Below, one piece after another: positions 9,195 through 34,505 of a DNA stretch of 64,000 bases. The notes beneath the pieces were generated by a model, which was not told the origin of the DNA, did no database searches, and saw only the letters and a list, made by a program, of their open reading frames with translations. Position 1 is the first letter of the stretch, and every line of letters begins with the position of its first letter. This DNA is from a bacterium (GTDB lineage Bacteria > Zhuqueibacterota > QNDG01 > JAFGCO01). The stretch spans positions 1 to 64,000 of the forward strand of contig JAFGCO010000034.1 of the NCBI GenBank assembly GCA_016932575.1, read 5' to 3'. Both the position numbers and the translations under genes were made by a program.

Positions 9195-9520
9195 GTGAAT
9201 CTCCTGTCATTTATTTGAATTGACTCTAGGAAAATAATACAGAAAATGGTCAAATCAAAACGACAAATTCCGGCATGTTGTTTTTAAGATATTCAAAATT
9301 TAATCCGTGCATTTTCTTCAATAGTTTTATATATTCCAGTATATTAAAACATATTACCTGCAGGTCAGGGATTATGGATCATCGAGCCTTTGTTTCAGTA
9401 ACCGGTTTTCCCACTGTATTGAATTCTATGCGCTTATCCAAGGGTGCTTAACATTTAAATCTGAAATCCTGAAGTCATCACTATATTTGAATGCATTACC
9501 GGTCGAATCGGAGGGCAATC
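9195..9520. other. Divergent intergenic region, AT-rich
   Basis: These 326 bases separate the minus-strand MBL gene from the plus-strand GH114-like gene and must hold both promoters. TATATT-like boxes occur on the plus strand near 9327-9347, but I see no convincing -35 partner on either strand. No ORF with a ribosome site and no strong inverted repeat was found. Confidence 0.4.
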
Positions 9521-10741
9521 ATGCATCGATCTGTTTATTACAACTGTGCCTTGCTTTTCATCTTTTTGTCAGGTATTCTGAGCGCGCGGAAGGATATTCC
9601 AGAAATTTCAAATTTCACCTATCAGCTTCAAAATCTCGATCCGGTAACTGTGGGTAAAACCGGATTTGATCTGGTGATTATGGATTATTCGTCTGAAGGG
9701 GATGATGAATCTGCATATACGGCCGATGAGATTGCCTCCTTAAAAAACAGCAGCGGAGGACAAAAAATTATTTTGTCCTATCTGAGTATTGGCGAAGCAG
9801 AGGATTACCGGTTTTACTGGAAGAAAAACTGGAAGCCCGGGAATCCGGACTGGCTGGATGAAGAGAACCCGGATTGGGAGGGCAATTATAAGGTTCGCTA
9901 TTGGAATCCGGTGTGGCAGGCGATCATTTATTCTTATCTGGATCGTATCCTGAGTGCCGGTTTTGACGGTGTGTACCTGGATATAATTGATGCTTATGAA
10001 ACATACCTTCATTTCAGTTCAGTACAGGCCAGTCTTGAAATGGTCCGTTTTGTAAAATCCATTCGTGAGTATGCCCGGTATCAGAATTCCGGCTTTGTCA
10101 TTTTTGTGCAGAATGCAGCCGAGCTGGCGGATATGCATCCCGAATATCTTGATTGTGTGGACGGGATCGGTCAGGAAGATATCTATTACGGATATGAGGG
10201 TGACGGTGAGGCCACCGATCCTGCTGTGAGCCGGGAAATTGAAACCTGTCTTGATAAGTTTCTGAATCAGGGGAAGACCGTGCTTACTGTGGATTATCCA
10301 TTTTCAGAAAGCGAAGATATACCACACTTTGATGAATCAACCCTGAATAAAATTACCGATGCCTATACCAAATCCAGGGACAGGGGCTATATTCCATACT
10401 GCACAGTCCGCGAACTCAGCTATCTGACCATCAATCCCGGATATGAACCGACAAGCGTGAAAGAAATGGTCAGGGCAGATTGTTTTCTATTGTTACATAA
10501 CTATCCCAATCCATTTAACGGACAGACAACGATCCGTTATCAGCTGTCCGCAGGAAGCAGGGTGAAGGTCAGGATTGTCGATATATTAGGAAGAGAGATC
10601 GAAGTGTTGGTGGATGAAGGGCAGCCGGCGGGACGATACCGGATACATTGGGATGCCTCCGGTGTGCCTTCTGGTATTTATTTTTATGAGATCACTGACG
10701 GAGATTATCATGCGGTGAAGAAGATGGAATTGATGAAATAA
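9521..10741 (+). CDS. Secreted GH114/TM1410-like glycoside hydrolase with sorting domain
   Basis: ATG 9521 follows GGAGGG; an ATG at 9491 in frame has no ribosome site. The 406-residue product has a signal peptide ending near L-S-A-R. The body looks like the endo-alpha-1,4-polygalactosaminidase (GH114/TM1410) barrel. It has I-M-D-Y-S after strand 1, I-I-L-S-Y-L-S-I-G-E-A-E-D-Y-R, then W-K-P-G-N-P-D-W-L and G-F-D-G-V-Y-L-D-I-I-D-A-Y-E, with acidic residues where the family has its active site. Residues about 320-406 are a FlgD-like sorting domain starting at N-Y-P-N-P-F-N-G. The family acts on galactosamine-rich polysaccharide; the actual substrate here is an inference. Length of the catalytic part (about 280) is normal. 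Confidence 0.8.
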   Translation: MHRSVYYNCALLFIFLSGILSARKDIPEISNFTYQLQNLDPVTVGKTGFDLVIMDYSSEGDDESAYTADEIASLKNSSGGQKIILSYLSIGEAEDYRFYWKKNWKPGNPDWLDEENPDWEGNYKVRYWNPVWQAIIYSYLDRILSAGFDGVYLDIIDAYETYLHFSSVQASLEMVRFVKSIREYARYQNSGFVIFVQNAAELADMHPEYLDCVDGIGQEDIYYGYEGDGEATDPAVSREIETCLDKFLNQGKTVLTVDYPFSESEDIPHFDESTLNKITDAYTKSRDRGYIPYCTVRELSYLTINPGYEPTSVKEMVRADCFLLLHNYPNPFNGQTTIRYQLSAGSRVKVRIVDILGREIEVLVDEGQPAGRYRIHWDASGVPSGIYFYEITDGDYHAVKKMELMK

Positions 10742-10906
10742 GGAAAATTTGGAAAGCATGATTACACGAAGATTCATGATTTTATGTCTTTTTGTGTGTG
10801 TGATGAGAGATTGGGATTAGAACGACTGCCATTTAGGAATAAGCCACAACAGGTGAAATGTCATCAAAGTCTAATAATCAAATTCAGGATAAATGTGGGC
10901 GGTCAT

Positions 10907-12454
10907 ATGAAGCGGTTTAATTGCTTTGTCTGGATGATTGTAATTTGGCCGTTTTTGTTAACGGGTCAGCGCATCCGGCCCGGCGACTTGGAATACCTTG
11001 GTGCATTTCGTTTGCCGGAGGGGCCTGATGAAATCGGCTGGGGTTACAGCGGTCAGGGATTGACCTATTATCCGAACGGCGATCCGACAGGCCCCGAAGA
11101 TGGATTTGCGGGATCTTTGTTTGGAATCGGTCATGATTGGAACACCTATGTCTCGGAAGTCAGTATTCCGGTGCCGGTGATCTCTTTAAATAAAAACGTC
11201 GATGAGCTCAACACGGCTGTAACACTTCAGCCTTTTCAAAATATTCGTCCCGCCTATTTTGAAGATGTCTATCTGGAGCAAACCCGGACAGGATTGGCCT
11301 ATCTGCCTGCACAAGGGAAACAATCTTCAGGAAAACTCTATTACTGTTTCGCAGCCCATATGGGGGAAACAGAAACCCGTCCAACACATGGCTGGTGCGA
11401 TTTGGATCTCTCAAATCCGCAATCCGCAGGTCCCTGGCGATTGGGTGAATACTGGAATTATGTGACTGCGGATTATGTATTTGAAATTTCTGAATCCTGG
11501 GCAGAACTGTACACGCCGGGATTGCGGCTGGCAGCCGGAAGGTTCCGGGACGGCGGCCAGGGTTCTCAGGGACCCACGATGTTTGCCTATGGTCCCTGGA
11601 ACCACGGCAATCCACCAGAGCAGGGGAGTACAATTTCCTGCACACCTCTGCTTCTGTACGGTGATGTCTATATCGAAGGCAATCCGACCATGAATGGTTA
11701 CCATCATTCTGATGCATGGGACGGCGGGGCCTGGCTGACTGCAGGTGATCGATCCGCTGTGATATTTACCGGCACCAAGGGCCAGGGCCGATGCTGGTAT
11801 GGATTGATCGACGGAACGGTCTGGGAGGAGCCTTACCCTAACGACAAACCGGATTATCTCCTGGAAACCCGCGGCTGGTGGAGCGAGCGTTTTGAGGGTC
11901 AGATGATTTTTTATGATACGGATGATCTTGCCGCCGTAGCCCGGGGAACACTTGAATCCTGGGAACCGCAGCCTTATGATTCACTCAATCTGGATCCCTG
12001 CCTGTATCATATTGAGTCTGAACGGCAAAAATCACATGTCATGGCCTGTGCCTTTGACCGGGAGAGGGGATATTTGTATGTCATGGAGCCGGAAGCGGAT
12101 GATGACAAGAGTCTGATCCATGTCTGGCGGGTGCAAGGCGAAGAAACCAATGTTCATCGAAGTCCATCCACTGTTCAGGGATTTCAGCTGCTTCAGGCCT
12201 ATCCGAATCCATGCAATCGGAGCATGGTTATCCGGTATCGGCTAAACGGGATTGCATCAGTCCAATTAAAGATCCTGGACAATCGGGGACGGCTTTGTAA
12301 CACTCTTTTTAATGGCTGCCAATACCCTGGAGATCACATCTTCTCATGGAATGCGACCGATGCGTATGGAAAATGGCTTCCGTCCGGTCTGTATATCATT
12401 TACCTGAGAGCCGGACATTTTTATCAGGTTAAAAAATTTATTCTGTTAAACTGA
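10907..12454 (+). CDS. Secreted protein of unknown function with C-terminal sorting domain
   Basis: ATG 10907 gives a clean signal peptide (M-K-R-F-N-C-F-V-W-M-I-V-I-W-P-F-L-L-T-G-Q); the frame is open to 10784 but without a ribosome site there. The 515-residue product is rich in W, G, Y and P, with repeated short beta-type segments. I do not recognise a family, though a propeller or lectin-like beta fold would fit. The last 90 residues read A-Y-P-N-P-C-N-R-S and end in G-L-Y-I-I-Y-L-R, a FlgD-like/type IX sorting domain with Cys in place of the usual Phe. It lies 165 bases after the GH114-like gene on the same strand, and both are secreted. Confidence 0.75.
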   Translation: MKRFNCFVWMIVIWPFLLTGQRIRPGDLEYLGAFRLPEGPDEIGWGYSGQGLTYYPNGDPTGPEDGFAGSLFGIGHDWNTYVSEVSIPVPVISLNKNVDELNTAVTLQPFQNIRPAYFEDVYLEQTRTGLAYLPAQGKQSSGKLYYCFAAHMGETETRPTHGWCDLDLSNPQSAGPWRLGEYWNYVTADYVFEISESWAELYTPGLRLAAGRFRDGGQGSQGPTMFAYGPWNHGNPPEQGSTISCTPLLLYGDVYIEGNPTMNGYHHSDAWDGGAWLTAGDRSAVIFTGTKGQGRCWYGLIDGTVWEEPYPNDKPDYLLETRGWWSERFEGQMIFYDTDDLAAVARGTLESWEPQPYDSLNLDPCLYHIESERQKSHVMACAFDRERGYLYVMEPEADDDKSLIHVWRVQGEETNVHRSPSTVQGFQLLQAYPNPCNRSMVIRYRLNGIASVQLKILDNRGRLCNTLFNGCQYPGDHIFSWNATDAYGKWLPSGLYIIYLRAGHFYQVKKFILLN

Positions 12455-12800: not shown

Positions 12801-13460
12801 ATGAAGGAGACCATTCAGGATCACTTATTTGCACTGATGCTGAAATCGAGAAAAGATGCCGCCGTTCAACTGATTGCGCAGTATGCAGATCAATATGGCA
12901 GTGAAGCGGCTGTCATTCACTTGCTGGAACCGGCCTTGAACCGTTTCGGAGTGATTTGGGCCGGTCAGGAAAATGTAAGTTTGGCGCAGGGGTATATTGT
13001 CGCAAGGATCGCAGAGGAGGTGCTGGCAGGAGCGGCCGCAGCGAAACCGGTGTATATCGGTCAAAAAAAGGGACCAATTGTTATTGGAAATATTGAAGAT
13101 GATTATCATGACCTGGGCCGAAAACTCGTTACCACATTTTTACGGGCTTATGGATGGCAGGTGGTCGATATGGGGAACGATGTTTTAGCGGAAGACCTGT
13201 TTGATCAGGCTCAAAGCGTGAAGTCAAAAGTCATTGCTGTATCTGCGATGATGTATACGACAGCGATGAATATTCAGAAAGTTCGGCAGGTGATCAATCG
13301 TCACGGCCTGAAAGGAAAAATAAAGCTGGCTGTGGGCGGAGCTGTCTTTTTACTGCGCCCTGAATTGGTTGATGAAGTGGGGGGAGACGGCACTTCCCGA
13401 AACGCATTGGGAGCTCCCGAATTGATGAAGTCGCTTTGGGAAGCGGCCGATCGTCTGTAG
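12801..13460 (+). CDS. Cobalamin (corrinoid)-binding protein, MtaC/MtbC type
   Basis: ATG 12801 follows GAGGTGA; a TTG at 12771 in frame has no ribosome site. The 219-residue product has the two-domain build of methyltransferase corrinoid proteins. A helical cap occupies about 1-85, and a Rossmann-like B12 domain follows with D-Y-H-D-L-G at 101-106. This is the D-x-H-x-x-G signature whose His (103) is the lower axial ligand of cobalt. Downstream S-A-M-M-Y and A-V-G-G-A-V-F take the places of the usual S-x-L and G-G motifs. Such proteins carry a methyl group between two methyltransferases. It is 9 bases before a UroD-family gene and heads a group that runs into a sensor kinase, so a sensing role is possible. 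Confidence 0.85.
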   Translation: MKETIQDHLFALMLKSRKDAAVQLIAQYADQYGSEAAVIHLLEPALNRFGVIWAGQENVSLAQGYIVARIAEEVLAGAAAAKPVYIGQKKGPIVIGNIEDDYHDLGRKLVTTFLRAYGWQVVDMGNDVLAEDLFDQAQSVKSKVIAVSAMMYTTAMNIQKVRQVINRHGLKGKIKLAVGGAVFLLRPELVDEVGGDGTSRNALGAPELMKSLWEAADRL

Positions 13461-13469
13461 GAGATCTTA

Positions 13470-14498
13470 ATGAACAGCATGGAAAGAATACAGGCAACGA
13501 TTCGGGGAATGGATAAGGATCGCTGTGCTGTCAGTTTAACCCTGAGTTTATTTGGCGCTCGGTTAATCCAATGTCCTCTGGAAACCTATTACACGGATGC
13601 TGTCTGCTATTCTCGGGGGCAGGAAGAGGTCCTCAGGCACTGTCATCCGGATATTCTTTTCGGTCCTTTTGCTCTGCCACTGGAAGGCAGGGCATTCGGA
13701 AGCGACATCCGGTTTATGGATAAAAATCCGCCCAATCTGAAGCGGCCGGCATGGGCCTCCGTTCGGGAGATGCCGCGGTTGAACTTTCCTGATCTGGATT
13801 CTGATCCGACCATGCTGTATTTTTTCGAAGCGGTGCATCATATGAAAAAAATCCATGGGAATAAAATACCGATCGCTGCGATCACGCTTTCGCCTGTCGA
13901 TCTTCCTGTGATGCTGTTTGGAATTCATGGATGGCTTGAATCCGTTCTGTTTTATAAAGATGAAACCAGAAAACTCATGGATAAACTGGTTCCTTACTGC
14001 ATAAAAAAGATCAATCGATTCATGGAATCGGGTGCAGCTTTTGTTGTCATGCCCTGTGCGTTTGCGAATCCTTCGGTTATTACACGCGAAATTGCAGAAA
14101 CAATCATGCTGCCAGTTTTAAACGATACTTTCCGTGAATCAAAGGGCCCGCTGCTGATTCATTCCGCAGGAGCACCGCTTATTCCCTTTCTGGATTTATA
14201 TTATGATTTGCCCGGGGTGTCCGGATTCGTATTAAACGGAGAGGAAGACATTCGCCTGGCCCGCAGGAGGGTGGGCCCGGAAAAGGTGCTGATCGGCAAT
14301 GTGGAAGGTCCCACCCTGGTCAATCATTCAATCGATAAAATTGAACAGATCTGCAGGCAGACACTGGATGCGTGTGGAGACGATCCCCGATTTATTTTTG
14401 GAACCACCGGTGCAGATATCGCTTATGATACTCCTGTCAGCAATATCCAGGTATTTACGAAGACTTCTGATGCAGCTGGAAGAGGAAAACTGTTATGA
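13470..14498 (+). CDS. Uroporphyrinogen decarboxylase-family (MtaA/CmuA-like) protein lacking zinc cysteines
   Basis: The 342-residue product has the UroD barrel: start M-E-R-I-Q-A-T-I-R-G, a central G-A-A-F-V-V-M-P, and the ending F-G-T-T-G-A-D-I-A-Y-D-T-P-V-S-N-I. In MtaA/MtbA-type corrinoid methyltransferases a H-x-C...C motif binds zinc and activates a thiol. Here the positions read H231-S-A233 and G-A315-D, so both cysteines are replaced by Ala. The N-terminal catalytic arginines of true HemE are not evident, so haem synthesis is unlikely. The neighbouring corrinoid protein supports methyl-corrinoid binding, but thiol methylation seems lost. Its stop overlaps the next start (ATGA at 14495-14498), implying translational coupling to the kinase. 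Confidence 0.8.
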   Translation: MNSMERIQATIRGMDKDRCAVSLTLSLFGARLIQCPLETYYTDAVCYSRGQEEVLRHCHPDILFGPFALPLEGRAFGSDIRFMDKNPPNLKRPAWASVREMPRLNFPDLDSDPTMLYFFEAVHHMKKIHGNKIPIAAITLSPVDLPVMLFGIHGWLESVLFYKDETRKLMDKLVPYCIKKINRFMESGAAFVVMPCAFANPSVITREIAETIMLPVLNDTFRESKGPLLIHSAGAPLIPFLDLYYDLPGVSGFVLNGEEDIRLARRRVGPEKVLIGNVEGPTLVNHSIDKIEQICRQTLDACGDDPRFIFGTTGADIAYDTPVSNIQVFTKTSDAAGRGKLL

Positions 14499-16660
14499 AA
14501 TCGCCGAATTCCATCCGTTGCCTGGCCTGTTCGATATTTAAGGATTTTTTAGATGCCATTTTATCCGAAGGCGAGATGAATCTTGATGTGGAGTATATTT
14601 CCTCTATGCTGCATATGCATCCTTCCAGGCTCGATGAAATACTTGAAGAAAAATTGGCCGAAAACCAGAATATTTCACGAAACACACTGATTCTATTCGG
14701 AGATTGCCATCCGTATATGCAAGACCAGATGAAACGATATCATGCGCACCGGGTGGCCGGCATCAACTGTGCTGAAATCTTATTAGGACGGAAAACATAC
14801 CAGGCCCTGCGAAAGGAGGGTGTTTTTTTCTTAATGCCTGAATGGACGATTCACTGGAAGGAAGTGTTTCAGCAGGAATTGGGTCTGGACAACACATTGG
14901 CGAAAGAAATGATGCAAGACATGCATTCCAGGCTCGTTTATCTGGATTTAGGCACCAGGCGGATTCCCCGAATGATTCTGAATGAAATCTCCGAGTACAC
15001 CGGTCTGCCGGTAAAGATCATGAAAGTCGATCCCAGTTTATTTAAAACGCACCTTGAATCTGCCTTAAAATCCCTTCAGGGGGACTTGTCTGTACAATCC
15101 ACAGAGCAGCAGAATCTAGCATTTCAAAGCATGGCCCTGGATATGATCGAGGCCATGCTGCATCAGGCGGATAATCCAAACCAGCTTCAATCGGATATTG
15201 CCAGTCAGATGCGCGCTTTTACGGGCGCCCGGGTCGTCATTCTGGCCCAGTTTGTAGATGAATTTGACAAACCGGGACATAAAATAATGGTTGTTGATCC
15301 TGAACGGCACAGGGATATTGAAAAGGCGGATTCAGTGCATGCAATGCTCTGGGAAACCCGTCATTTAATGCAATCGAAATTGTGGGAGCCGAATGCTGTC
15401 AATCCGGATATTGGCCGTTTTATGAAAGATGCCAATTTTGAAATGTCGATCGCCGTTCCCCTTCATGTAGGTAAAAAACGGGTGGGAGCATTATTGCTTC
15501 TGGGACTGCCCGATGATAATTCCATCGGGATGGCTCTAAAAATGCTGGATATTATTGCAACGATCCTGGCCCTTATTTTCAGAAATGCTTTGTTATTGAG
15601 TCACCAGGAAAATATCATCGAAAAACAGACGCGAAAGCTTAGGGAAAGCGAGTCCAAATATCGGCTGCTTTTTAATGTTGCCGGTGATTCTATTGTTATC
15701 CATTCATTACATGGAAATTTTATTGAAGTTAATGATATTGCCTGCGAGGCTCTGGGATACTCGCACGATGAACTGCTGCGATTGCATCTAAAGGACATTG
15801 ATGCGTCTCCTTCGGATTACGCCATGAATCTTCATCTCAAAACAATTCAAAAAAAAGGAGCGCTGGTATTTGAATCAGAACTTCGAACAAAGGAAGGACA
15901 ATTGCTTCCTGTTGAAATTAACAGCCGTTTGATCGATTATGAAGGCGGTTCGGCCATTCTCAGTGTTGTCCGGGATATTTCAGAGCGTAAGCAGCAGGAT
16001 AAAAAGCTGGAATCCTTACTGAAGGAAAAGGAGGTGCTTTTAAAGGAAGTTTATCATCGGGTGAAAAATAATTTTATGATTATTTCCAGCCTGCTGCATC
16101 TTCAGTCTTCCAAAATAAAAAATCAGAAAGCGCTTTCATTGTTTCAGGAAAGCCGGGACCGAGTCCAGACAATGGCTTTAATTCACCAACAATTGTATCG
16201 TTCTGCAGATTTGGCCAGTATCAATTTTAAGAGTTTCATTGAACAACTGACAGGCAATCTTTACCGTTCCTATGTTTCCAATCCTTCCAAAATTAAGCTG
16301 CTGCAGCATGTGGATGATGTTTCTATCAGTGTGAACAAGGCCATTCCTTGCGGATTAATTCTCAATGAGTTGATCACAAATGCATTAAAATATGCCTTTC
16401 CTGGCAACCGGGAAGGTCTGCTTAAAGTGGAATTGCTGTCGCCTGATGAGAACCAAATAAAATTACATGTTTGTGATAATGGTGTGGGATTACCGAAAGA
16501 GATTGATGTTGCCAAAAGTGAGTCACTGGGTTTACGCATGGTAAGCATGTTATCACAGCAGATCAGGGGGAAATTAAGGGTAAAATCCAGTAAAGGTTTA
16601 TGTGTTACTATTACTTTTCCAAGGGGGGAAGAGCAGACAGTCGAAGAAGTAAAAGAGTAA
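14495..16660 (+). CDS. DUF1638-GAF-PAS-HisKA_2 sensor histidine kinase
   Basis: A 721-residue cytosolic protein with no membrane segment. Residues about 8-200 resemble DUF1638, a domain I recall from genomes rich in corrinoid methyltransferases. They contain R-C-L-A-C-S, S-M-L-H-M-H-P-S-R-L, L-F-G-D-C-H-P, I-N-C-A-E-I-L-L-G-R, F-F-L-M-P-E-W and R-L-V-Y-L-D-L-G, with conserved Cys/His. A GAF-like domain (about 205-370) and a PAS domain (about 380-505) follow. The HisKA_2 box E-V-Y-H-R-V-K-N-N has the phosphoacceptor His521, with the ATPase N-box L-N-E-L-I-T-N-A-L-K-Y-A-F-P and G-box D-N-G-V-G-L. Its start overlaps the UroD stop. I infer that it reads the state of the corrinoid/UroD pair. A response regulator gene follows 82 bases later. 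Confidence 0.85.
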   Translation: MKSPNSIRCLACSIFKDFLDAILSEGEMNLDVEYISSMLHMHPSRLDEILEEKLAENQNISRNTLILFGDCHPYMQDQMKRYHAHRVAGINCAEILLGRKTYQALRKEGVFFLMPEWTIHWKEVFQQELGLDNTLAKEMMQDMHSRLVYLDLGTRRIPRMILNEISEYTGLPVKIMKVDPSLFKTHLESALKSLQGDLSVQSTEQQNLAFQSMALDMIEAMLHQADNPNQLQSDIASQMRAFTGARVVILAQFVDEFDKPGHKIMVVDPERHRDIEKADSVHAMLWETRHLMQSKLWEPNAVNPDIGRFMKDANFEMSIAVPLHVGKKRVGALLLLGLPDDNSIGMALKMLDIIATILALIFRNALLLSHQENIIEKQTRKLRESESKYRLLFNVAGDSIVIHSLHGNFIEVNDIACEALGYSHDELLRLHLKDIDASPSDYAMNLHLKTIQKKGALVFESELRTKEGQLLPVEINSRLIDYEGGSAILSVVRDISERKQQDKKLESLLKEKEVLLKEVYHRVKNNFMIISSLLHLQSSKIKNQKALSLFQESRDRVQTMALIHQQLYRSADLASINFKSFIEQLTGNLYRSYVSNPSKIKLLQHVDDVSISVNKAIPCGLILNELITNALKYAFPGNREGLLKVELLSPDENQIKLHVCDNGVGLPKEIDVAKSESLGLRMVSMLSQQIRGKLRVKSSKGLCVTITFPRGEEQTVEEVKE

Positions 16661-16742: not shown

Positions 16743-19700
16743 ATGAGTAAGCCCGCGAGAGTATTGATCGTCGAAGACGAGGCCATTATTGCCCAGGATC
16801 TGAAATCCACACTGATTGATTTGAATTATGAAGTGGTGAACATTGTCAGCACAGGGCAGGATGCCCTTGACTTTCTGAAACAGGGTACAGTGGATGTTAT
16901 CTTAATGGATATTCGAATTAAGGGCGATAAAAATGGTATTGAGACAACGGAATTAATCAATGCGAAATATAATTTACCGGTCATTTTTCTTACGGCTTAT
17001 GCAGATACAGAAACAATGAAGCGGATCAGGAACACGGATGCTTATGGATTTATTGTGAAACCAGCCAGTGAACAGACCATTCAGGGATCCATTGATCTGG
17101 CTCTTTACAAACACGGGCTCGATCAGAAATTGCGTGAGCGGGAAGAGCGGCTTGCTCATATGAATCAGGTACTTAAGGCCATTCGGAATGTGAATCAGTT
17201 AATTACCAAGGAGCGGAACATTTCCCGGCTCATTCAGGGTGCCTGTGACAATTTGATTGAAACACTGGGTTACTCACGGGCTTTTATTGCTTTATATGAC
17301 GGACAAGAGACACTCTCGACATTTGCTTATGCCGGTTTCGATAATCCCGTTGACCGGCTGGAAAATTTGTTGCGGGCTGATATCTCGCAATATCCCCCCT
17401 GCATCCAGCAGGCGTATCAAGTAAAAAACAGAATCAATGTTACGGATACAGAGAAAGATTGTGATGACTGCATTTTGCGTAAAGAATATCGCCAGTACAG
17501 CCGGTTCAGTATGTGCCTTGCCTATGGAGGAAAAACATATGGTGTGATGTCTGTGGCGGTTCCATCCGTGTTTGTATATGAAAAAGAAGAGCAGTCACTG
17601 TTTGAAGAATTGGTGGATGATGTGGCCTTTGCGCTTTATCGTCTTGAACTGGAAGAGAAAAGAAAATATGCCGAAGATATGCTGAAAACCCGGGAACGTA
17701 CATTATCCAATTTAATGAACAATATTCCGGGAATTGCTTACCGACGCCTCCATGATGAGACATGGACCATGGAATTCATTAGCAACGGATGTGTCCGGGT
17801 GACAGGTTATCAGCCCATTGAACTGATTAAAAATTACCGATTGTCCTTTGATCAACTCATTTATCCTGAAGATCTGGAGAAAATCCAATTCAAAGTGGAT
17901 CAATCGATTCTGGAAAATCGATCCTATGAAATGATATATCGTATCCATACGATAGAAGGGGACCTGAAATGGGTGTGGGACCGGGGTGCTTTTATCGGAG
18001 AAAAGAAGGATGACCGACCCGTTTTAGAGGGTGTGATTCATGACATCACCGAGCAAAAAAAGGCTGAAGAAGCACTCAATCAGGAACGGGCGTTTACGGA
18101 GATGGCTTTGGATGCCCAGACAGATACATTTTTTGTATTCGATCCAAAAACTGGGAAGGCGGTTCGCTGGAACAAAAGGTTTGAACATGTATCGGGATAC
18201 ACAGCCGAAGAAATTGCGGATTTGCCGATGCCCGTGTCCTATTACAGTAAAAAAGATGTTGACAGGGCCATTTCGTTTATTAAACAGCTGGCCGTTGAAA
18301 AAGAAGGCCTGATTGAATTGTCTCTGATTACCAAAGACAACCGCAGGATTCCGTATGAATACCGCGTTACAAGTATCAACGATCCTGAAACCCAAAATCA
18401 ATATCTGATTTCTGTGGGAAGAGATGTGAGCGAACGTAAAACAGTCGAACAGGCGCTCAGAGAAAGTGAGCAGAAATACCGGGCCCTCGTCGAAAATATG
18501 ACCGATTATGTATTTTTAATCGACCGGAAAAATTGTGTGCTTTCCATCAATCGTGCGGCAGAAAAATTTCTCCAATGTTCACCCGAGGACGTTATCGGAA
18601 AGTCCCTTCTCGAAATATACCCAAAGTCGCTGGCAGAAAAATATATGACGAGCATCCGACATGTTTTTAATACCGGAGAGCCGCTGATTGTCGAGAGAGA
18701 AACCAAAATGCATAATCATGTATTCTGGATTGTTGCCAGCCTGAGTCCGATTAAAGATGAATCGGGCAATGTTACTGAAGTTATTGGTTCGAGCCGGGAT
18801 ATCACCAAGCGCAAACTGGCGGAAAATAAGCTGAAGGGGAGTGAGCAAAAATATCGGGCCCTGGTGGAGAACATCAGCGATTCAGTTTTTATGGTAGATA
18901 AAGACAATCAGGTGATATCTGTCAATCCGGCCGGCGTTCAATTTTTACATCGGGAACATGAAAACATTGTAGGAGAGACGATATACAGGCTGTTTCCCAA
19001 AACATTGGCGGAACAATATGTAAAAAGCATTCAAAGTGTTTTTCGAGACGGCAAACCGATCCTCGTTGAAACAAAAACGATGGTTCAGGGCAGAATGTTA
19101 TGGCTGGCAGTCGGTTTAAGTTCGATCAAGGATGATAGAGGCAAAGTCACTGCTGTGATCGGCGTCAGCCGGGATATTACGGAACGTAAAAATATTGAAG
19201 AGGCGCTTATTCAGAGCGAGTCACGGTATCGTGCAATCGTGGAGGACCAGACCGAACTTATCACACGATGGCTGCCGAATGGTAAGCGGACCTTTGTAAA
19301 CGGGGCTTACTGTCGATATTATGGCAAGACTTATGATGAGTTAATCGGAGTAAGTTTTTTCCCTTTGATTCATAAAGAGGATTTAGGGAGGATTAAAACA
19401 AAAATCCGGACACTGACTCCTGAGAATCCTGCAGCCATTGATGAGCATCGTCGGATCATGCCGGATGGTGAGATACGCTGGCATCAGTGGATCGACCGGG
19501 CGATTTTTAATGAAAAGGGCAAAATTTGCGAAATTCAGTCAGTAGGACGGGATGTGACCCAGCGAAGGCAGGTCGAGCAGAATTTACGTCATGCAAACAT
19601 TCAGATGAAAGCGATTTTGGAAAATACAGATGAAAGTATTATGATCGCGGACAAAGCGGGAATGCCCGTCATGTATAATGAAGCTTATATACAGATTATT

Positions 19701-21221
19701 CGTGAAATCATGGGAATTGAGATGCAGCCGGGTCTGAAACCTCACAGAAAAGTTACGGACGCAAAAACCAGAAAATGCTGGGATGAATGGCATAAACGGG
19801 TGCTTGCCGGTGAGAAGTTCAACGTCGAGTTCGCCTGTCCTGAAAAGCAGGGTGAGATGCGATATTTTGATATTCACTTTTATCCAATCATTGAAGACAA
19901 TGAAGTGCGGGGATTTACAGAGTTCAGCCGGGATGTATCAGACCGTAAAAAAGCCGAGAAAGCAGTCAAAGATAGTGAACAGTTCATGATGTCTGTATTT
20001 GAAAGCATTCAGGATGGCGTCAGTATTTTGAATCCGGATTTGACAATACGTTCGGTCAATCATGTGATGCGTGAATGGTACGCTAAAAACGAACCCCTTG
20101 AGGGGAAATCCTGTTATTACTGTTATCAGGGCCTGCAGCAGCCTTGCGATCCCTGCCCCTCGCTTCGATGCATCAAATCAAAAAAAACAGAATTAAATGT
20201 GGTCCCGGGTCCTTCCGGCTCGCCAGTCAAATGGATTGAACTGTTCAGCTATCCGATTATTGAGCCGGATACCGGTAAAATAACCGGCGTGGTCGAATTT
20301 GTCCGGGACATCACCCAGCGGAAAGAATATGAAGAGGCCCTGCTTCAAAGCGAGTCCCTGATGAAAAAAATTGCTGACAATTACCCCCATTCTTATCTTG
20401 CCATTATCAACAGAGATTTAACTATTGGTTATGCTGCGGGACAGGAATTTAAAAAGCAGGGAATGGATCCGGATGATTACACCGGGCAGTTGATTGAAAA
20501 TGTGTTTGGCAAATACACACCGATTGTGAAAAGTGAATATTTAAAAACATTCCGTGGAAAAGAAACCGCCTTCGAATTGAATATAAACGGTCAATATCTT
20601 CTGACTCATACTGTACCTCTTATCAACGAACAGGGAGATATCGATCGAATTCTGATGGTTGTCGAGAATATCAGTGAACGAAAAAAGGTAGAGGAAGCAC
20701 TCAGAGAGAGTGAAACCAAATTCAAGGCCATTGCTGAGCATTCTCCGGTCGGTATTATAATGATCAAAGATAATTATGTTGTTTATATGAATCAGTACTG
20801 CCGGAAAATCGGCCAGTTTCAAAAAGGAGATATTGAAAACCGGCCTTTCTGGGAGCTGGTGCATCCGGACATGCAGGCATTTATGAAAAACCGTGCCCGA
20901 AAAAGGCTTCATGCCATCAATGAACCCGTCCGATATGAAATAAAAGTATTAACCAAAAAAGGCCAACTGAAATGGGTGGATTGTTCCACGACCGTTATCG
21001 ATTATCAAAGCGAGCCGGTTTTAATCGGGATTTTGATCGATATTACCGAACGCAAGCTGGCGGAAGAAGCGTTGCATGAAAAGATGAAAGAGCTGGAAAA
21101 ATTCAACCGGGTCATGGTTGGTCGTGAAAACCGAATGATCGAACTGAAACGGGAAGTCAATGCCTTAAGCAGCTCATTAGGCAGGTGTAAAAAGTACCGG
21201 GTGCCAAAAGAAACAGAGTAA
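16743..21221 (+). CDS. Giant response-regulator protein REC-GAF-PAS(x9) without kinase or DNA-binding output
   Basis: This 1492-residue soluble protein starts with a receiver domain (acidic pair E11/D12, phosphorylated D56, T84, K106), then a GAF domain (about 145-310), then nine PAS domains. Each PAS ends in a D-I-T-x-R/Q-K type linker. The C-terminus is a coiled coil with R-E-N-R-M-I-E-L-K-R-E-V-N, usual at the ends of PAS kinases, but no HisKA or ATPase domain follows. PAS 7 has a cysteine cluster (C1124, C1127, C1135, C1138, C1143). PAS 3 and 4 (from about 575 and 700) are close copies. ATG 16743 follows GAGGAT. It probably takes phosphate from an adjacent kinase and acts through protein contact; the output is unknown. 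Confidence 0.85.
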   Translation: MSKPARVLIVEDEAIIAQDLKSTLIDLNYEVVNIVSTGQDALDFLKQGTVDVILMDIRIKGDKNGIETTELINAKYNLPVIFLTAYADTETMKRIRNTDAYGFIVKPASEQTIQGSIDLALYKHGLDQKLREREERLAHMNQVLKAIRNVNQLITKERNISRLIQGACDNLIETLGYSRAFIALYDGQETLSTFAYAGFDNPVDRLENLLRADISQYPPCIQQAYQVKNRINVTDTEKDCDDCILRKEYRQYSRFSMCLAYGGKTYGVMSVAVPSVFVYEKEEQSLFEELVDDVAFALYRLELEEKRKYAEDMLKTRERTLSNLMNNIPGIAYRRLHDETWTMEFISNGCVRVTGYQPIELIKNYRLSFDQLIYPEDLEKIQFKVDQSILENRSYEMIYRIHTIEGDLKWVWDRGAFIGEKKDDRPVLEGVIHDITEQKKAEEALNQERAFTEMALDAQTDTFFVFDPKTGKAVRWNKRFEHVSGYTAEEIADLPMPVSYYSKKDVDRAISFIKQLAVEKEGLIELSLITKDNRRIPYEYRVTSINDPETQNQYLISVGRDVSERKTVEQALRESEQKYRALVENMTDYVFLIDRKNCVLSINRAAEKFLQCSPEDVIGKSLLEIYPKSLAEKYMTSIRHVFNTGEPLIVERETKMHNHVFWIVASLSPIKDESGNVTEVIGSSRDITKRKLAENKLKGSEQKYRALVENISDSVFMVDKDNQVISVNPAGVQFLHREHENIVGETIYRLFPKTLAEQYVKSIQSVFRDGKPILVETKTMVQGRMLWLAVGLSSIKDDRGKVTAVIGVSRDITERKNIEEALIQSESRYRAIVEDQTELITRWLPNGKRTFVNGAYCRYYGKTYDELIGVSFFPLIHKEDLGRIKTKIRTLTPENPAAIDEHRRIMPDGEIRWHQWIDRAIFNEKGKICEIQSVGRDVTQRRQVEQNLRHANIQMKAILENTDESIMIADKAGMPVMYNEAYIQIIREIMGIEMQPGLKPHRKVTDAKTRKCWDEWHKRVLAGEKFNVEFACPEKQGEMRYFDIHFYPIIEDNEVRGFTEFSRDVSDRKKAEKAVKDSEQFMMSVFESIQDGVSILNPDLTIRSVNHVMREWYAKNEPLEGKSCYYCYQGLQQPCDPCPSLRCIKSKKTELNVVPGPSGSPVKWIELFSYPIIEPDTGKITGVVEFVRDITQRKEYEEALLQSESLMKKIADNYPHSYLAIINRDLTIGYAAGQEFKKQGMDPDDYTGQLIENVFGKYTPIVKSEYLKTFRGKETAFELNINGQYLLTHTVPLINEQGDIDRILMVVENISERKKVEEALRESETKFKAIAEHSPVGIIMIKDNYVVYMNQYCRKIGQFQKGDIENRPFWELVHPDMQAFMKNRARKRLHAINEPVRYEIKVLTKKGQLKWVDCSTTVIDYQSEPVLIGILIDITERKLAEEALHEKMKELEKFNRVMVGRENRMIELKREVNALSSSLGRCKKYRVPKETE

Positions 21222-21260: not shown

Positions 21261-24062
21261 ATGAATGATCAAGGCAAAACCAAAGCACAGCTCATTCAGG
21301 AGATCCAGAATCTGCGCACGGAATTGAATCGTCTCAAGAAAAAAAAATCTTACCGGGAAATGGAGAAAAGCCGCAATGCGGCCCTGAACCTTCTGGAAGA
21401 TTTAAAGCAGGAAGTGGAAGAACGAAAATACATTGAGCAGAGACTCCGTGAGAGCGAACAAAGACTTTCTCTGGCACTTGAATGCACGGGTGTCGGATTA
21501 TGGGATCAGGATTTTCGTAACAATAAAGTATATCGAAGTGATGGATGGGCAAAGATGCTGGGATACTCACCGGAAGAAATAAAGGATGATTGGATATTCT
21601 GGAAGTCAATTGTGCATCCTGATGATTGGGCGATGGTCAAAGGAGTAACCGAGGCCCATGAAAGCAGTCAGTGTGATACGTTTAATGTCGAGCATCGGAT
21701 GAAAACCAAATCCGGTCACTATAAATGGATACGTAATTGGGGAAAGGTGATTGAGAGGGATGAAAATGGCAAGCCGCTCCGTGCTCTTGGACTTCATGTG
21801 GATATTGATGCAAGAAAACAGACAGAGGAAGAGCTCAGAAGATCTGAACAGGCGGCCCGGGAAAGTGAAAACCGTAACCGGATGCTGCTTGATTATGCCG
21901 GCGTGGGTATCGGGTATTGGGATATCAATGGCAATTTGCTCATGTTTAATCCTCAAGCTGCCAGAAATATGAATGGAAAATCCGAGAATTTGTGCGGAAT
22001 GAATATAAAAGATCTGTTCGAAGAAAAGGAAGCATCGATCTATTTGTCACGGATTAAAAAGGTAGCGAAATCAGACCGGCCGATGATCTATGAAGATCGA
22101 AGTTTGCTGAGTTCCGGGGAGAAGTGGTTTTTATCACAGTACAACCGTGTTTTGGATGATCAGGGTAAAGTGACCGGAATCATGATTATTGCGAGTGACA
22201 TTACAGACAAGAAACGGATGGAAATTGCCCTTGCAGAAAACGAGCAAAAATACAGGCGGCTGTTTAACAGCGCCAATGATATTATCTTTATTCACCAGTA
22301 TACAGATGAAAGGGTACCGGAACATTTTATTGAAGTGAATGACTGCGCTGTCCGGACTTTGGGATATACGCGCAATGAATTATTAAATCGCACACCCATG
22401 GATATTATTTCACAGGATGACAAGAAAAGAGTAGAACGTGAATCCGATATCATTTTCAAGAAAAGCGAATCCCTTTTTGAGCGGATATTTATCACTAATA
22501 AGGGGAACCCCATTCCATTTGAATGCCACACAAGGTTATTCGATTACAAGGGCCGGCCAACTGCCTTGTCCATTTGTCGTAATATCTCCGAGCGCAGGCG
22601 TACAGAGCAGGCACTGCTTGCAGAACAAAATTTGCTTCGGAAAATCATGGATACGAGTCCTGTGGGGATCACTTTGGTCAATGCAAAAGGAAAGATTACT
22701 TTTGCCAATCAATGTGCTGAGAAACTATTCAAATTAAGTAAAAAAGAGCTGACTTCAAGAACGTACAATGATAAGACCTTTAATATTAGAGATCCCGAGG
22801 GGAGGCCTTTCCCGGATGAAAAGTTACCCTTTTGCATTGTAAAAAATACTCAAAAATCGGTTTCTGATGTCCGTCATGCCATCATCGGGCCGAAAGGCGT
22901 CAGACGACTGCTTTCTGTCAATGCCGAACCGCTTATTAATGAGCAGAACCGGTTTGATGGCATGGTAGCTGTGATTGAGGATATTACGGAACGCATGGAA
23001 GCAGATCGAGCCCTTCGCGAAAGTGAGAATAAATTTCGAATGCTTTTTGAAAACACGTCTTCAATGATTATTTTGCATGATATGAACGGGCGTTTCCTGG
23101 ATGCCAATCAGAGGGCGCTTGATGCGTGGGGATACACCAAGCGTGAATTCCTTAAAATGCGTGTTTCAGATATGGATCCCGATTCTGTCAGGAGAGATGA
23201 TCCTGAAAACCTCTGGAAACAGCTTGATCAAAAAGCAAATGTAAGGTTCGAATCAGAAATTCGAGGAAAGAACGGATCACATTGCCCGATTGAAATTATG
23301 TTAAGCAAGTTGTCACTTCATGGTCAGAAGGTGATTATGGCTGTTTGCCGGGACATTACCGAGCAGAAAAAATCAGAAAAAGAGATCCAGGAGCATCGAA
23401 AAACATTGCAATATTTATCCGGACAGCTTATTAAAACCCAGGAAGAAGAACGGAAACGTCTTTCGAGAGAGCTTCATGACGAAATGGGTCAGGCTTTAAC
23501 TGCAATCAAATTGAATATTGCCACACTGCAGAAAAGCCTGGCTGGATCAAAATCGGAACAGTTCACCCGCCTTTTAAATGAGACGGATCATTTGACTCAA
23601 AACCTCATGGATGATATGCATCGTCTTGCCCTCGAGCTGCGGCCCAGTATTCTGGACGATCTGGGTTTGACACCGGCCTTAAAATGGTACACCAAGCAAT
23701 TTGCAAAAAGGTACGATATCAAGGTGAGTCTTCAGATACAGGCGATGGAAAGGCGGCTTCCGGTTGAACACGAGACCATTTTATACCGAATTATTCAGGA
23801 GGCATTGACCAATATTGCCAAATATGCAAACGCCAGTCGCGTGACAATCCGTCTTCAGCATTCCGATAAGGCCGTGTATGCAAGCATCCTGGACAACGGT
23901 CGGGGATTCGATATGAAAGCATTTGAAGCCAGAGGACCGGATCAGCGCGGAATTGGTCTGGTTGGTATGCATGAGCGTGTGGCAGCTGTAAACGGAGTTG
24001 TGAATATACGATCCCGGTTAGAGAAAGGGACAACAGTTAAAATTGTGCTTCCATTACGATGA
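21261..24062 (+). CDS. PAS(x5)-HisKA_3 sensor histidine kinase
   Basis: The 933-residue cytosolic kinase opens with a coiled coil (about 1-60), followed by five PAS domains to about 705. The NarX/DegS-type dimerisation domain has R-E-L-H-D-E-M-G-Q-A-L, His739 being the phosphoacceptor. The ATPase has R-I-I-Q-E-A-L-T-N-I-A-K-Y-A-N-A, D-N-G-R-G-F-D and G-I-G-L-V-G-M-H-E-R. The family normally pairs with NarL-type regulators. The lone receiver 160 bases downstream has a NarL-like receiver, so that pair is the natural guess. ATG 21261 follows GGTGGAG. The gene lies 39 bases after the REC-GAF-PAS gene and is probably in the same transcript. Confidence 0.9.
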   Translation: MNDQGKTKAQLIQEIQNLRTELNRLKKKKSYREMEKSRNAALNLLEDLKQEVEERKYIEQRLRESEQRLSLALECTGVGLWDQDFRNNKVYRSDGWAKMLGYSPEEIKDDWIFWKSIVHPDDWAMVKGVTEAHESSQCDTFNVEHRMKTKSGHYKWIRNWGKVIERDENGKPLRALGLHVDIDARKQTEEELRRSEQAARESENRNRMLLDYAGVGIGYWDINGNLLMFNPQAARNMNGKSENLCGMNIKDLFEEKEASIYLSRIKKVAKSDRPMIYEDRSLLSSGEKWFLSQYNRVLDDQGKVTGIMIIASDITDKKRMEIALAENEQKYRRLFNSANDIIFIHQYTDERVPEHFIEVNDCAVRTLGYTRNELLNRTPMDIISQDDKKRVERESDIIFKKSESLFERIFITNKGNPIPFECHTRLFDYKGRPTALSICRNISERRRTEQALLAEQNLLRKIMDTSPVGITLVNAKGKITFANQCAEKLFKLSKKELTSRTYNDKTFNIRDPEGRPFPDEKLPFCIVKNTQKSVSDVRHAIIGPKGVRRLLSVNAEPLINEQNRFDGMVAVIEDITERMEADRALRESENKFRMLFENTSSMIILHDMNGRFLDANQRALDAWGYTKREFLKMRVSDMDPDSVRRDDPENLWKQLDQKANVRFESEIRGKNGSHCPIEIMLSKLSLHGQKVIMAVCRDITEQKKSEKEIQEHRKTLQYLSGQLIKTQEEERKRLSRELHDEMGQALTAIKLNIATLQKSLAGSKSEQFTRLLNETDHLTQNLMDDMHRLALELRPSILDDLGLTPALKWYTKQFAKRYDIKVSLQIQAMERRLPVEHETILYRIIQEALTNIAKYANASRVTIRLQHSDKAVYASILDNGRGFDMKAFEARGPDQRGIGLVGMHERVAAVNGVVNIRSRLEKGTTVKIVLPLR

Positions 24063-24224
24063 TGTTGATTTTACATGTCCTTCTGGCATTACCGGATTTT
24101 TTTATGGACAGGCATGAGATAATCGATTGAGTTGGATGTGTCTGTTTCAGACGGGCTTTAGAAAGGGGAAGTGCTCCTGTTAAAATTTATGGTCACATAT
24201 AAGGATTTATAAAAAGGCACTGCC

Positions 24225-24602: not shown

Positions 24603-24687
24603 ATAATAAAAAAAATTCAGTGATTGTTATATATTTTATCGTGGATTTTCTGCGTTCAGGCTGTTAAAAATTTGGGTGGAGATGCCT

Positions 24688-25725
24688 ATGACGGTTATCA
24701 AGAATATTCTTTATATAGAAGACAATCCGGGTGATGTTAAGCTGTTCAGGGAAATGGTGTCTGGTTGTTCGGTACCTATGACGCTTCATGTGGTCAGGAC
24801 CATCAAGGAAGGCAAGGATATGATCCGCCGGCATGAATTTGATGCTATTCTTCTGGATGTGGAGCTTCCAGACAGTTATGGATTGGATTCCGTAAAAATG
24901 CTGGTTGAAGCCAGTCCTCATACTCCGGTGATTGTTTTAACTGGCCATCAGAATGATGTCCTTGGTGTTCAGGCCATTCAGTCCGGCGCGCAAGATTATC
25001 TGATAAAGGGGATTGATTATACGCCCATGATTCACCGCATCATTCAAAATGCCATCGAGCGAAAAGATATTGAAGATCAAAGAAAAGCAGCCGAACAGCA
25101 AATTCGGGCCTCTCTTATTGAAAAGGAAACACTGCTGAAAGAAATTCACCACCGTGTCAAGAACAACCTGCAAATTATCATGAGTCTGCTGAATTTACAG
25201 TCAGCCAGCATTCGGGATAAACAGGCACTGAAAATTTTTAAAGAAAGCCGTCAGCGAATCCATTCGATTGCATTGGTCCATGAGAAGTTGTATAAATCAA
25301 AAAATTTTTCTGAAATTGATTTTTCCAGTTATGTTCGTTCAATTGTCCATGAGTTGATGCGTGCCTATTTAATACCTGAAAAAGTTGAAGTGAAAATAGA
25401 TATTCAGGATATTTATTTAAGCATTGATATTGCCATCCCTTTGGGATTGATTGTGAATGAGTTAATGACAAATGCATTGAAGTATGCGTTTCCTGAACAG
25501 AAGGGTGGACATGTAAAAATCAGTCTGCATTCCATTTCAGATCAGCAATATGCGTTAAAATTTTCAGATGATGGCTTGGGATTCAATAAAGATGCGATCC
25601 TCAAAAAAAGAGGTCTGGGTCTGCAGCTGGTGGGTATCTTAACAGAGCAGTTAGAGGGCCATTTAAAGATTGACTGCGAAAAAGGATCCCGATTTCTGAT
25701 TCAATTTCCGAGATTTCAGTCATAA
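24688..25725 (+). CDS. REC-HisKA_2 hybrid: receiver fused to histidine kinase
   Basis: ATG 24688 is chosen because GGTGGAG lies six bases before it; GTG 24676 and ATG 24682 are also in frame. The 345-residue product has a receiver (E11/D12, D57, T/S and K-G region) and then directly a HisKA_2 kinase. The box is E-I-H-H-R-V-K-N-N-L-Q with phosphoacceptor His155, then V-N-E-L-M-T-N-A-L-K-Y-A-F-P, D-D-G-L-G-F and G-L-G-L-Q-L-V. With the receiver in front, kinase activity is probably controlled by phosphorylation from another kinase, making it a relay element. The kinase domain closely resembles that of the DUF1638 kinase upstream. Confidence 0.9.
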   Translation: MTVIKNILYIEDNPGDVKLFREMVSGCSVPMTLHVVRTIKEGKDMIRRHEFDAILLDVELPDSYGLDSVKMLVEASPHTPVIVLTGHQNDVLGVQAIQSGAQDYLIKGIDYTPMIHRIIQNAIERKDIEDQRKAAEQQIRASLIEKETLLKEIHHRVKNNLQIIMSLLNLQSASIRDKQALKIFKESRQRIHSIALVHEKLYKSKNFSEIDFSSYVRSIVHELMRAYLIPEKVEVKIDIQDIYLSIDIAIPLGLIVNELMTNALKYAFPEQKGGHVKISLHSISDQQYALKFSDDGLGFNKDAILKKRGLGLQLVGILTEQLEGHLKIDCEKGSRFLIQFPRFQS

Positions 25726-33485: not shown

Positions 33486-34505
33486 ATGAAAAAGACGATT
33501 ATCATCGGGCTCATTCTGATGCTGGCCGTATTTTCGGTATATTCCCAGAATATTACCAAAAAGGGAACAACTGCGGCTGGTTTTTTAAATATTGATGTGG
33601 GGGCACGAGCCGTGTCCATGGGATCCGCTTTTGTCACTGTGAGCGATGATCCCACGGCGGTTTATTGGAATCCTGCCGGACTCACGCAGTTGCATTCAAC
33701 CCAGGCCATGTTCAGTCATACGAAATGGCTGGCGGATATCACATTTAATTATGCGGCGCTTGCGCTTCCCCTCCCGGGGATTGGCACGGTGGGCGCATCG
33801 GCCACCTTTTTAACCATGGATGAGATGGAGAAAACAACGATTGAAAATCCCATGGGAACAGGTGAAATGTTCAGTGCCGGCAGTTACGCGTTTGCACTCT
33901 CCTATGCGAGAAAGCTGACCGACCGGTTCGCTATCGGCGGGAATATAAAATATGTCAGTGAAAGAATTTACCATTCTTCAGCCAATGGTGTGGCCCTGGA
34001 TGTGGGGACTTTATTTCAAACACAGTTCAATGGTTTGATGATCGGTATGAGCATCTCCAATTACGGCACGAAGATGCGGATGAGCGGCCGTGACATGTTG
34101 ATTCAGACAGATCCGGATCCTTCTATTGGCGGGAATAATCCCAATATTCCGTCCAATATGGAAACCAATGCATTTGATATGCCCCTGATGTTCCGGGTGG
34201 GGATGAGTATGGATGTGCTGAAATGGAGCGATGAGTCAAGTCTTAAATTGGCCATGGATGCGATGCATCCCAACGATGATGTCGAGTACGTGAATATCGG
34301 AATGGAATGTATCTTATACAGGATGATCGCATTGCGGACAGGGTATAAAACCCTGTTTGCTGGTGAAAGCGAAGAGGGGCTGGCAATGGGATGTGGATTG
34401 AACACCAAAATCGCAAGCTATGGTGAAATAAAACTTGATTATGCTTATCAGCAATTTGGCATTCTGAAGAATATTCAAAAATTTACAGTCACCATGGCAT
34501 TTTAA
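33486..34505 (+). CDS. PorV/PorQ-family outer-membrane protein
   Basis: The 339-residue product has a signal peptide (cleavage after V-Y-S-Q). The N-terminal signature of the PorV/PorQ (UPF0164) family is G-A-R-A-V-S-M-G-S-A-F-V-T-V-S-D-D-P-T-A-V-Y-W-N-P-A-G-L (spaced here). The rest is FadL-like beta-barrel strands ending in T-V-T-M-A-F. In type IX secretion PorV works as a shuttle for sorting-domain cargo, but many family members in FCB phyla have no tested role. Its place after a sorting-domain protein supports an export or surface-retention role. ATG 33486 follows AGGAGACAAGG. It is the third gene of the cassette. Confidence 0.85.
   Translation: MKKTIIIGLILMLAVFSVYSQNITKKGTTAAGFLNIDVGARAVSMGSAFVTVSDDPTAVYWNPAGLTQLHSTQAMFSHTKWLADITFNYAALALPLPGIGTVGASATFLTMDEMEKTTIENPMGTGEMFSAGSYAFALSYARKLTDRFAIGGNIKYVSERIYHSSANGVALDVGTLFQTQFNGLMIGMSISNYGTKMRMSGRDMLIQTDPDPSIGGNNPNIPSNMETNAFDMPLMFRVGMSMDVLKWSDESSLKLAMDAMHPNDDVEYVNIGMECILYRMIALRTGYKTLFAGESEEGLAMGCGLNTKIASYGEIKLDYAYQQFGILKNIQKFTVTMAF

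Follow-up and report, generated by a model that had tools for sequence, protein, structure and literature searches.

Genes derived from a corrinoid methyltransferase as a probable sensory module of a DUF1638 histidine kinase

A 64,000-nucleotide stretch of bacterial DNA (contig JAFGCO010000034.1, positions 1 to 64,000; hereafter the window) carries three tightly packed genes, encoding a corrinoid protein, a UroD homologue and a histidine kinase that begins with a DUF1638 domain. Why are components resembling a methyltransferase coupled to a kinase? A sequence-only reading of the locus had regarded the first two proteins as a methyl-transferring pair and proposed that DUF1638 reads the state of the corrinoid protein for the kinase. 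We found that the UroD homologue keeps the MtaA fold without its zinc cysteines, and that the pair recurs in several phyla next to different signalling outputs. The three genes probably form a sensory system assembled from corrinoid methyltransferase parts, in which the state of the corrinoid is the signal and the UroD homologue is the ligand-specific part.

Organization of the three-gene unit

The genes all lie on the forward strand. Translation of the corrinoid protein (219 amino acids; 12801-13460) starts at the ATG at 12801, which is preceded by a GAGGTG-like ribosome site. The UroD/MtaA-fold protein (342 amino acids; 13470-14498) follows after a 9-base gap, and its stop codon is overlapped (ATGA) by the ATG of the kinase (721 amino acids; 14495-16660). 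When positions, gap and overlap were re-read, they agreed with the sequence-only reading, and Pfam supported the domains that it had named: B12-binding with a DxHxxG motif, URO-D, DUF1638 and HisKA_2.

The corrinoid protein matched the B12-binding family (PF02310, E 1.2e-17) and bears the cobalamin motif as D101-Y-H103-D-L-G106 (13101-13118), and the second protein matched PF01208 (E 1.6e-40). DUF1638, assigned to the kinase N-terminus in the earlier reading, gave a significant profile match at residues 35-185 (14597-15049; PF07796, E 1.5e-26, 93.7 bits against a cut-off of 27). Further along the kinase are a PAS domain (15686-15985; PF13426, PAS_9, E 4.6e-11), the HisKA_2 dimerisation and phosphoacceptor domain (16046-16273; PF07568, E 1.7e-26, 92.6 bits against 22.3) and HATPase_c (16352-16624; PF02518, E 1e-10, 42.5 bits against 26.4). 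Residues 206-380 had no Pfam match, nor did profile comparison with the GAF-type region of the other kinases give a significant one, and we left them as 'GAF-like?'. Pfam gave no match to MEDS or PocR in the kinase.

Loss of the MtaA zinc site in the UroD homologue

The AlphaFold model of the UroD homologue (predicted local distance difference test score, pLDDT, 87.5) superimposed on Methanosarcina mazei MtaA (4ay7) with Z 38.3 and a root-mean-square deviation (rmsd) of 2.3 over 328 aligned residues. In the alignment to 4ay7, and to 30 control UroDs, the HxC zinc motif of MtaA (HIC) is replaced by H231-S-A233-G (14160-14171), and the second, distal zinc cysteine by A315 (14412-14414). The protein also scored under the NCBIfam cut-offs for MtaA/CmuA (TIGR01463, 42.3 against 235.4 bits; MtaA_Meth, 72.6 against 400 bits) and for HemE (TIGR01464, 21.7 against 302.95 bits). 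Active HemE was ruled out on these scores, and active MtaA on the scores together with the zinc residues.

The loss extends beyond the window. The cysteine at the HxC place was kept in none of 23 sensor-linked UroDs and in 24 of 31 controls (Fisher 2.7e-9, a descriptive value and not a probability, as the sequences are related, cysteine loss is a group trait and independence is thereby overstated). Sensor UroDs have HSA, HTA, YSVAG, YEGVG or HxAS instead. In MtaA, the thiol to which the methyl group is transferred is activated by zinc. Because this thiol-activating site is gone, the sequence implies that the window UroD cannot run the MtaA reaction in the usual way. The earlier assignment as an MtaA-type methyl-transferring enzyme therefore did not hold: the fold is kept, but the HxC cysteine is absent from the window protein and from the other scored sensor-linked UroDs.

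These data bear on a conventional explanation of the locus, an ordinary metabolic corrinoid methyltransferase that the kinase merely regulates, with DUF1638 as a tethered reactivation factor. The homology of the components to the MtaA and MtaC families speaks for it, but the zinc cysteine is gone across the whole sensor-linked group, and we consider this explanation improbable, also in the light of the comparisons that follow.

Related loci and corrinoid activation genes within the phylum

In the phylum of the window, DUF1638 is carried by 14 of the 82 species searched. The window copy is the sole DUF1638 of its genome and the only one in the phylum within a long open frame (729 amino acids against 174-280 for the others). 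In three other genomes (G028, G045 and G079), a corrinoid gene and then a UroD gene are directly followed by a standalone DUF1638 gene. The corrinoid gene is preceded by a Roadblock gene in G028 and G045 (70% identical to each other) and by a Roadblock-like frame in G079. A protoglobin gene lies close to the triad in G028 and G045 (E 3.3e-16 and 1.2e-16). In these KSB1 relatives, the Roadblock and protoglobin genes lie close upstream of the triad (L020:10910-12417 and L019:11150-16695), with a Tll0287-like gene in L019.

At a second locus of G045 (L115:7177-9722, contig C469), the corrinoid domain itself is fused to a methyl-accepting chemotaxis protein (MCP) domain (MCPsignal, E 2.6e-24; B12-binding, E 5.1e-24), and a zinc-less UroD of the triad subfamily directly follows. 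The fusion has the make-up of a soluble chemoreceptor bearing a B12 domain, and a GCV_T-like gene and a cytochrome b gene lie nearby.

We then compared these genomes for corrinoid activation and catabolism. None of the four triad-bearing genomes in the phylum matched RACo (PF14574) or MTTB (PF06253), absences that are provisional since the assemblies are incomplete (94.5% for the window genome). RACo was present in all 10 other DUF1638 genomes. Metabolic DUF1638 thus accompanies RACo, whereas triad DUF1638 does not. The sequence-only reading had named an MtaB- or MttB-type substrate methyltransferase gene as a sign of ordinary catabolism. The window genome had no match to PF06253 (MttB type) or PF14574; MtaB was not searched. 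Nothing that the reading had listed as telling against it appeared in the searches made.

The missing MTTB and RACo matches weigh against a metabolic methyltransferase, whereas the known link of DUF1638 to B12 reactivation in metabolism and the tetrahydrofolate-linked C1 genes elsewhere in the genome count in its favour. A second, ordinary-looking corrinoid protein, accompanied by MTHFR and a pterin-binding methyltransferase, is encoded separately from the triad (L087:6492-9426, contig C71). The MetH-like protein on contig C56 appears without a fused activation domain, and a separate 223-residue frame on C53 matches that domain.

Exchange of output domains in other phyla

Using a profile of the triad UroDs, we searched for close members outside the phylum of the window. 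In G140, the corrinoid and UroD genes are followed by a single gene for a DUF1638-GAF-GGDEF protein (DUF1638, E 3.4e-13). With five further loci of the same phylum, the DUF1638::GGDEF fusion was found in six genomes in all. In G284, G395 and G400, the order is corrinoid protein, UroD, standalone DUF1638 (E 6.2e-9 and 9.7e-8 where scanned) and histidine kinase. Plasmid pAZKH of Azoarcus sp. KH32C (L126:11363-16512) encodes a corrinoid protein, a UroD and a DUF1638::HisKA::HATPase kinase (DUF1638, 1.1e-4, under the Pfam cut-off), and then a kinase-receiver hybrid. This locus is flanked on one side by formaldehyde and formylmethanofuran genes, including fae, and on the other by a cluster for a pyrroloquinoline quinone (PQQ)-dependent dehydrogenase of the methanol/ethanol family, making the Azoarcus triad a candidate regulator of methanol dehydrogenase. 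A profile of the DUF1638 regions from other phyla matched the window subfamily with 98.3% probability (E 1.5e-14).

In other loci, RACo stands where DUF1638 would be. A Thiodictyon plasmid has corrinoid protein, UroD, RACo and GAF-GGDEF in this order. In the phylum of G284 (24 species), UroD is mostly fused to Fer2-RACo, with the corrinoid gene and a PAS kinase adjoining and often a sigma-54 receiver regulator. Such fusions of about 900-970 amino acids beside a PAS kinase were seen, for example, in L158:5961-12061, L159:4883-10902 and L180-L193. In the phylum of G140, 13 of 400 genomes contain this UroD type. Its 16 further loci comprise five DUF1638::GGDEF, five RACo-GGDEF, one RACo-kinase, four with a kinase after UroD (one of which has a second corrinoid gene between the two) and one without signalling. 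One corrinoid-UroD-DUF1638 locus (L192:2945-5266, contig C42 of G401) has a receiver protein upstream; its UroD carries YYCG near the zinc place, the contig ends before any output gene, and it was left unclassified.

The HxC-place cysteine is also gone from every further sensor locus with a scored output. By contrast, HICG is retained in L194, the sole UroD of the RACo phylum without a kinase neighbour, and in L227, the weakest match and the G140-phylum locus without signalling, which looks metabolic.

In total, a corrinoid protein and a UroD of this type occur together with a signalling output, or in three cases with Roadblock and DUF1638, at about 40 loci. The triad order is thus more than chance, recurring in other genera and phyla, and the conserved neighbourhood anticipated by the sequence-only reading proved broader than it had supposed. 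The corrinoid protein and zinc-less UroD are constant, DUF1638 or RACo comes next (absent in a few) and the output varies. RACo replaces DUF1638 ahead of a kinase or GGDEF protein in about 20 loci, and the two were never seen together in the shared slot, which suggests related jobs on the corrinoid. The fusions of the corrinoid domain to an MCP domain and of DUF1638 to GGDEF are difficult to reconcile with a purely metabolic unit.

At 20 control loci with 30 other non-HemE UroD frames from the phylum of the window, no kinase, receiver, GGDEF or MCP was found within five genes by the same home-made profiles as were used for the sensor loci; given their small size, these profiles could overlook a divergent signalling protein, but they detected a signalling partner in nearly every sensor locus. 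The lack of signalling neighbours in the controls likewise disfavours the metabolic explanation. A scan of genome contigs with two narrow patterns returned only two KSB1-type relatives, so that the evidence from other phyla derives from the genome searches. A scan of viral contigs gave nothing, and tblastn of plasmids with the window DUF1638 region gave one weak standalone DUF1638.

Conserved cysteines in DUF1638

We aligned 17 DUF1638 copies, including the window and Azoarcus kinases, GGDEF fusions and metabolic copies. Cysteines C12, C71 and C92 (window numbering) were conserved in 16, 17 and 17 of them, respectively; the single exception at C12 is a gene from Paracoccus whose annotated start lies further downstream. 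C12 belongs to the residues flanking the domain N-terminally, before residue 35. In the model of kinase residues 1-216 (pLDDT 82.7), C12 lies at a strand end, C71 after a strand and C92 at a helix start, a placement that would suit a metal or cluster site. Matches of the modelled fold in the PDB were weak, the best being 3lfh (Z 8.6, rmsd 3.0, 85 residues), followed by the PrpR sensor domain (2pju; Z 7.7, rmsd 5.3, 141 residues), and Foldseek gave no match to the model below 0.001. We claim no kinship from these matches, which are compatible with a two-lobed alpha/beta fold.

The corrinoid protein as a proposed sensor input

The DxHxxG motif (DYHDLG in the window) was invariant across four aligned corrinoid proteins, and the window protein was 31-33% identical to its G028 and G045 counterparts. 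Its helical cap (PF02607) scored 13.5 bits, under the 23-bit cut-off. Across cap and B12 domain, the protein also matched CarH and photocobilin sequences (39.8 bits; 7e-8), as expected if it were a light sensor of the CarH kind that uses adenosylcobalamin and has UroD as its accessory. The published photoreceptor signature consists of GxxW, EH, GxxH and GxxxP (PMC11796333), but at the place of EH the window cap has QG and its relatives QI. CarH-like light sensing was ruled out by the missing EH element; we regard it as very improbable.

A closer competitor retains the same module but assigns it another stimulus: redox state or a gas (O2, NO, CO or N2O) would act on the corrinoid in its reduced form, UroD would be a structural clamp and no methyl donor would take part. 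Co(I) corrinoids are highly reactive, and the lost zinc site, the PAS and GAF-type domains in the outputs, the protoglobin genes near the KSB1 relatives and the Tll0287-like domain at one locus all fit this idea. However, protoglobin occurs in KSB1 loci only, the Azoarcus copy lies among methanol-oxidation genes, and a barrel of the MtaA fold whose pocket has changed hints at a specific ligand. We consider redox or gas sensing unlikely, though deserving more weight than the metabolic explanation.

Several observations must be set against a sensor that responds to the state of the corrinoid through UroD. Within the phylum, the kinase fusion was seen in this genome only, and the protoglobin genes beside the KSB1 copies may indicate that a gas or redox state is sensed. 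Full cobalamin binding is uncertain because the window cap scores under the Pfam cut-off, and the PAS domain of the kinase could be the actual sensor. Most loci come from draft genomes and are not independent, and neighbourhoods other than that of Azoarcus point to no single substrate.

Genomic surroundings of the triad

A gene for a 1492-residue protein with a receiver, a GAF and eight PAS stretches (16743-21221, forward strand; Response_reg, E 4.7e-22; GAF_2, E 1.3e-9; PAS_4; Pfam) begins 82 bases downstream of the kinase. This protein, which has no recognisable output domain, is the probable phosphorelay partner of the triad kinase. A multi-PAS HisKA_3 kinase (21261-24062) may belong to the same transcript, which a terminator-like hairpin with a T run (24082-24096) would close; the hairpin comes from a pattern scan that found 19 such sites against 12.8 expected. 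Beyond it is a receiver-HisKA_2-HATPase protein (24676-25725) whose relation to the triad is unproven. The triad thus stands at the head of a signalling cluster whose further genes share its strand. Near the triad genes, no Rfam family was matched, cobalamin riboswitches included. Elsewhere in the window, two proteins have YPNPFN/YPNPCN-type C-terminal sorting regions resembling those of type IX secretion (9491-12454), and a PorV match was found at 33486-34505.

Proposed mechanism

In the mechanism that we favour, the signal would reside in the cobalt of the corrinoid protein, according to whether it is alkylated, Co(I) or Co(II). Without its zinc site, the MtaA-fold protein would no longer drain methyl groups into metabolism; as the ligand-specific part, it may bind a methyl donor or another ligand and thereby alter or gate the corrinoid. 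DUF1638 would dock on the corrinoid/UroD pair and pass its state to the kinase, which would then phosphorylate the adjacent receiver protein. The varied loci are most simply explained if the pair does the sensing and DUF1638, or RACo, links it to the output. That DUF1638 may read the corrinoid is made more plausible by its interchange in the same slot with RACo, a corrinoid activase. Our confidence is evenly balanced on the wider proposal of a widespread sensor class. Such sensors would take their input from a corrinoid protein paired with a zinc-less MtaA-like barrel, use the alkylation or redox state of the cobalt as the signal, and relay it through DUF1638 or RACo to kinases, GGDEF enzymes and chemoreceptors.

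If this is true, bacteria have a new route to sense one-carbon compounds or redox state, through a repurposed methyltransferase that signals by carrying out its reaction or by being blocked in it, and DUF1638 gains a molecular role as a partner sensitive to corrinoid state. An old question about DUF1638 also becomes testable, as the domain is placed here between the corrinoid protein and the kinase or GGDEF output and alternates with RACo. The Azoarcus copy, which belongs to a sequenced strain and lies in its methanol-oxidation region, could serve as a laboratory system.

Comparison with known systems

Two-component systems, GGDEF proteins, B12-based sensors such as CarH and enzymes doubling as sensors are already known. 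In the open-access papers searched, we found no account of a corrinoid module that derives from a methyltransferase and is shared by several types of output. The closest structural relatives are the MtaA/CmuA methylcobamide:coenzyme M methyltransferases (4ay7), which share the fold over the whole protein and are likewise paired with a corrinoid protein. Those enzymes have HxC and a second cysteine, whereas the window UroD has HSA and alanine and falls below TIGR01463.

DUF1638 is also found in aerobic B12-dependent methionine synthesis (Phaeobacter PGA1_c13340) and in methylamine-type clusters, as a member of the same Pfam family with the conserved cysteines, beside corrinoid genes (also in Paracoccus). 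In Phaeobacter, B12-dependent methionine synthesis needs both this protein and a RamA-like one, and Price et al. made no specific proposal for its role there (PMC5764234). The metabolic protein is standalone and works with RACo/RamA, whereas that of the window forms part of a kinase, and no RACo was detected in its genome. RACo and RamA, the ASKHA corrinoid activases that in about 20 sensor loci follow UroD in the place of DUF1638, are ATP-driven and belong to another protein family than DUF1638.

Among sensors, MEDS/PocR domains, such as that of MecA in the dichloromethane mec cassette, provide kinase-linked sensing of C1 compounds and small hydrocarbons adjoining corrinoid methyltransferase genes (PMC9768040). 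MEDS/PocR is a single ligand-binding domain, whereas the window system has a corrinoid/UroD pair. CarH and the photocobilins, like the proposed window system, have a B12-binding domain as the sensor input; the window protein, however, lacks the adenosylcobalamin light signature, and those photoreceptors have no UroD partner.

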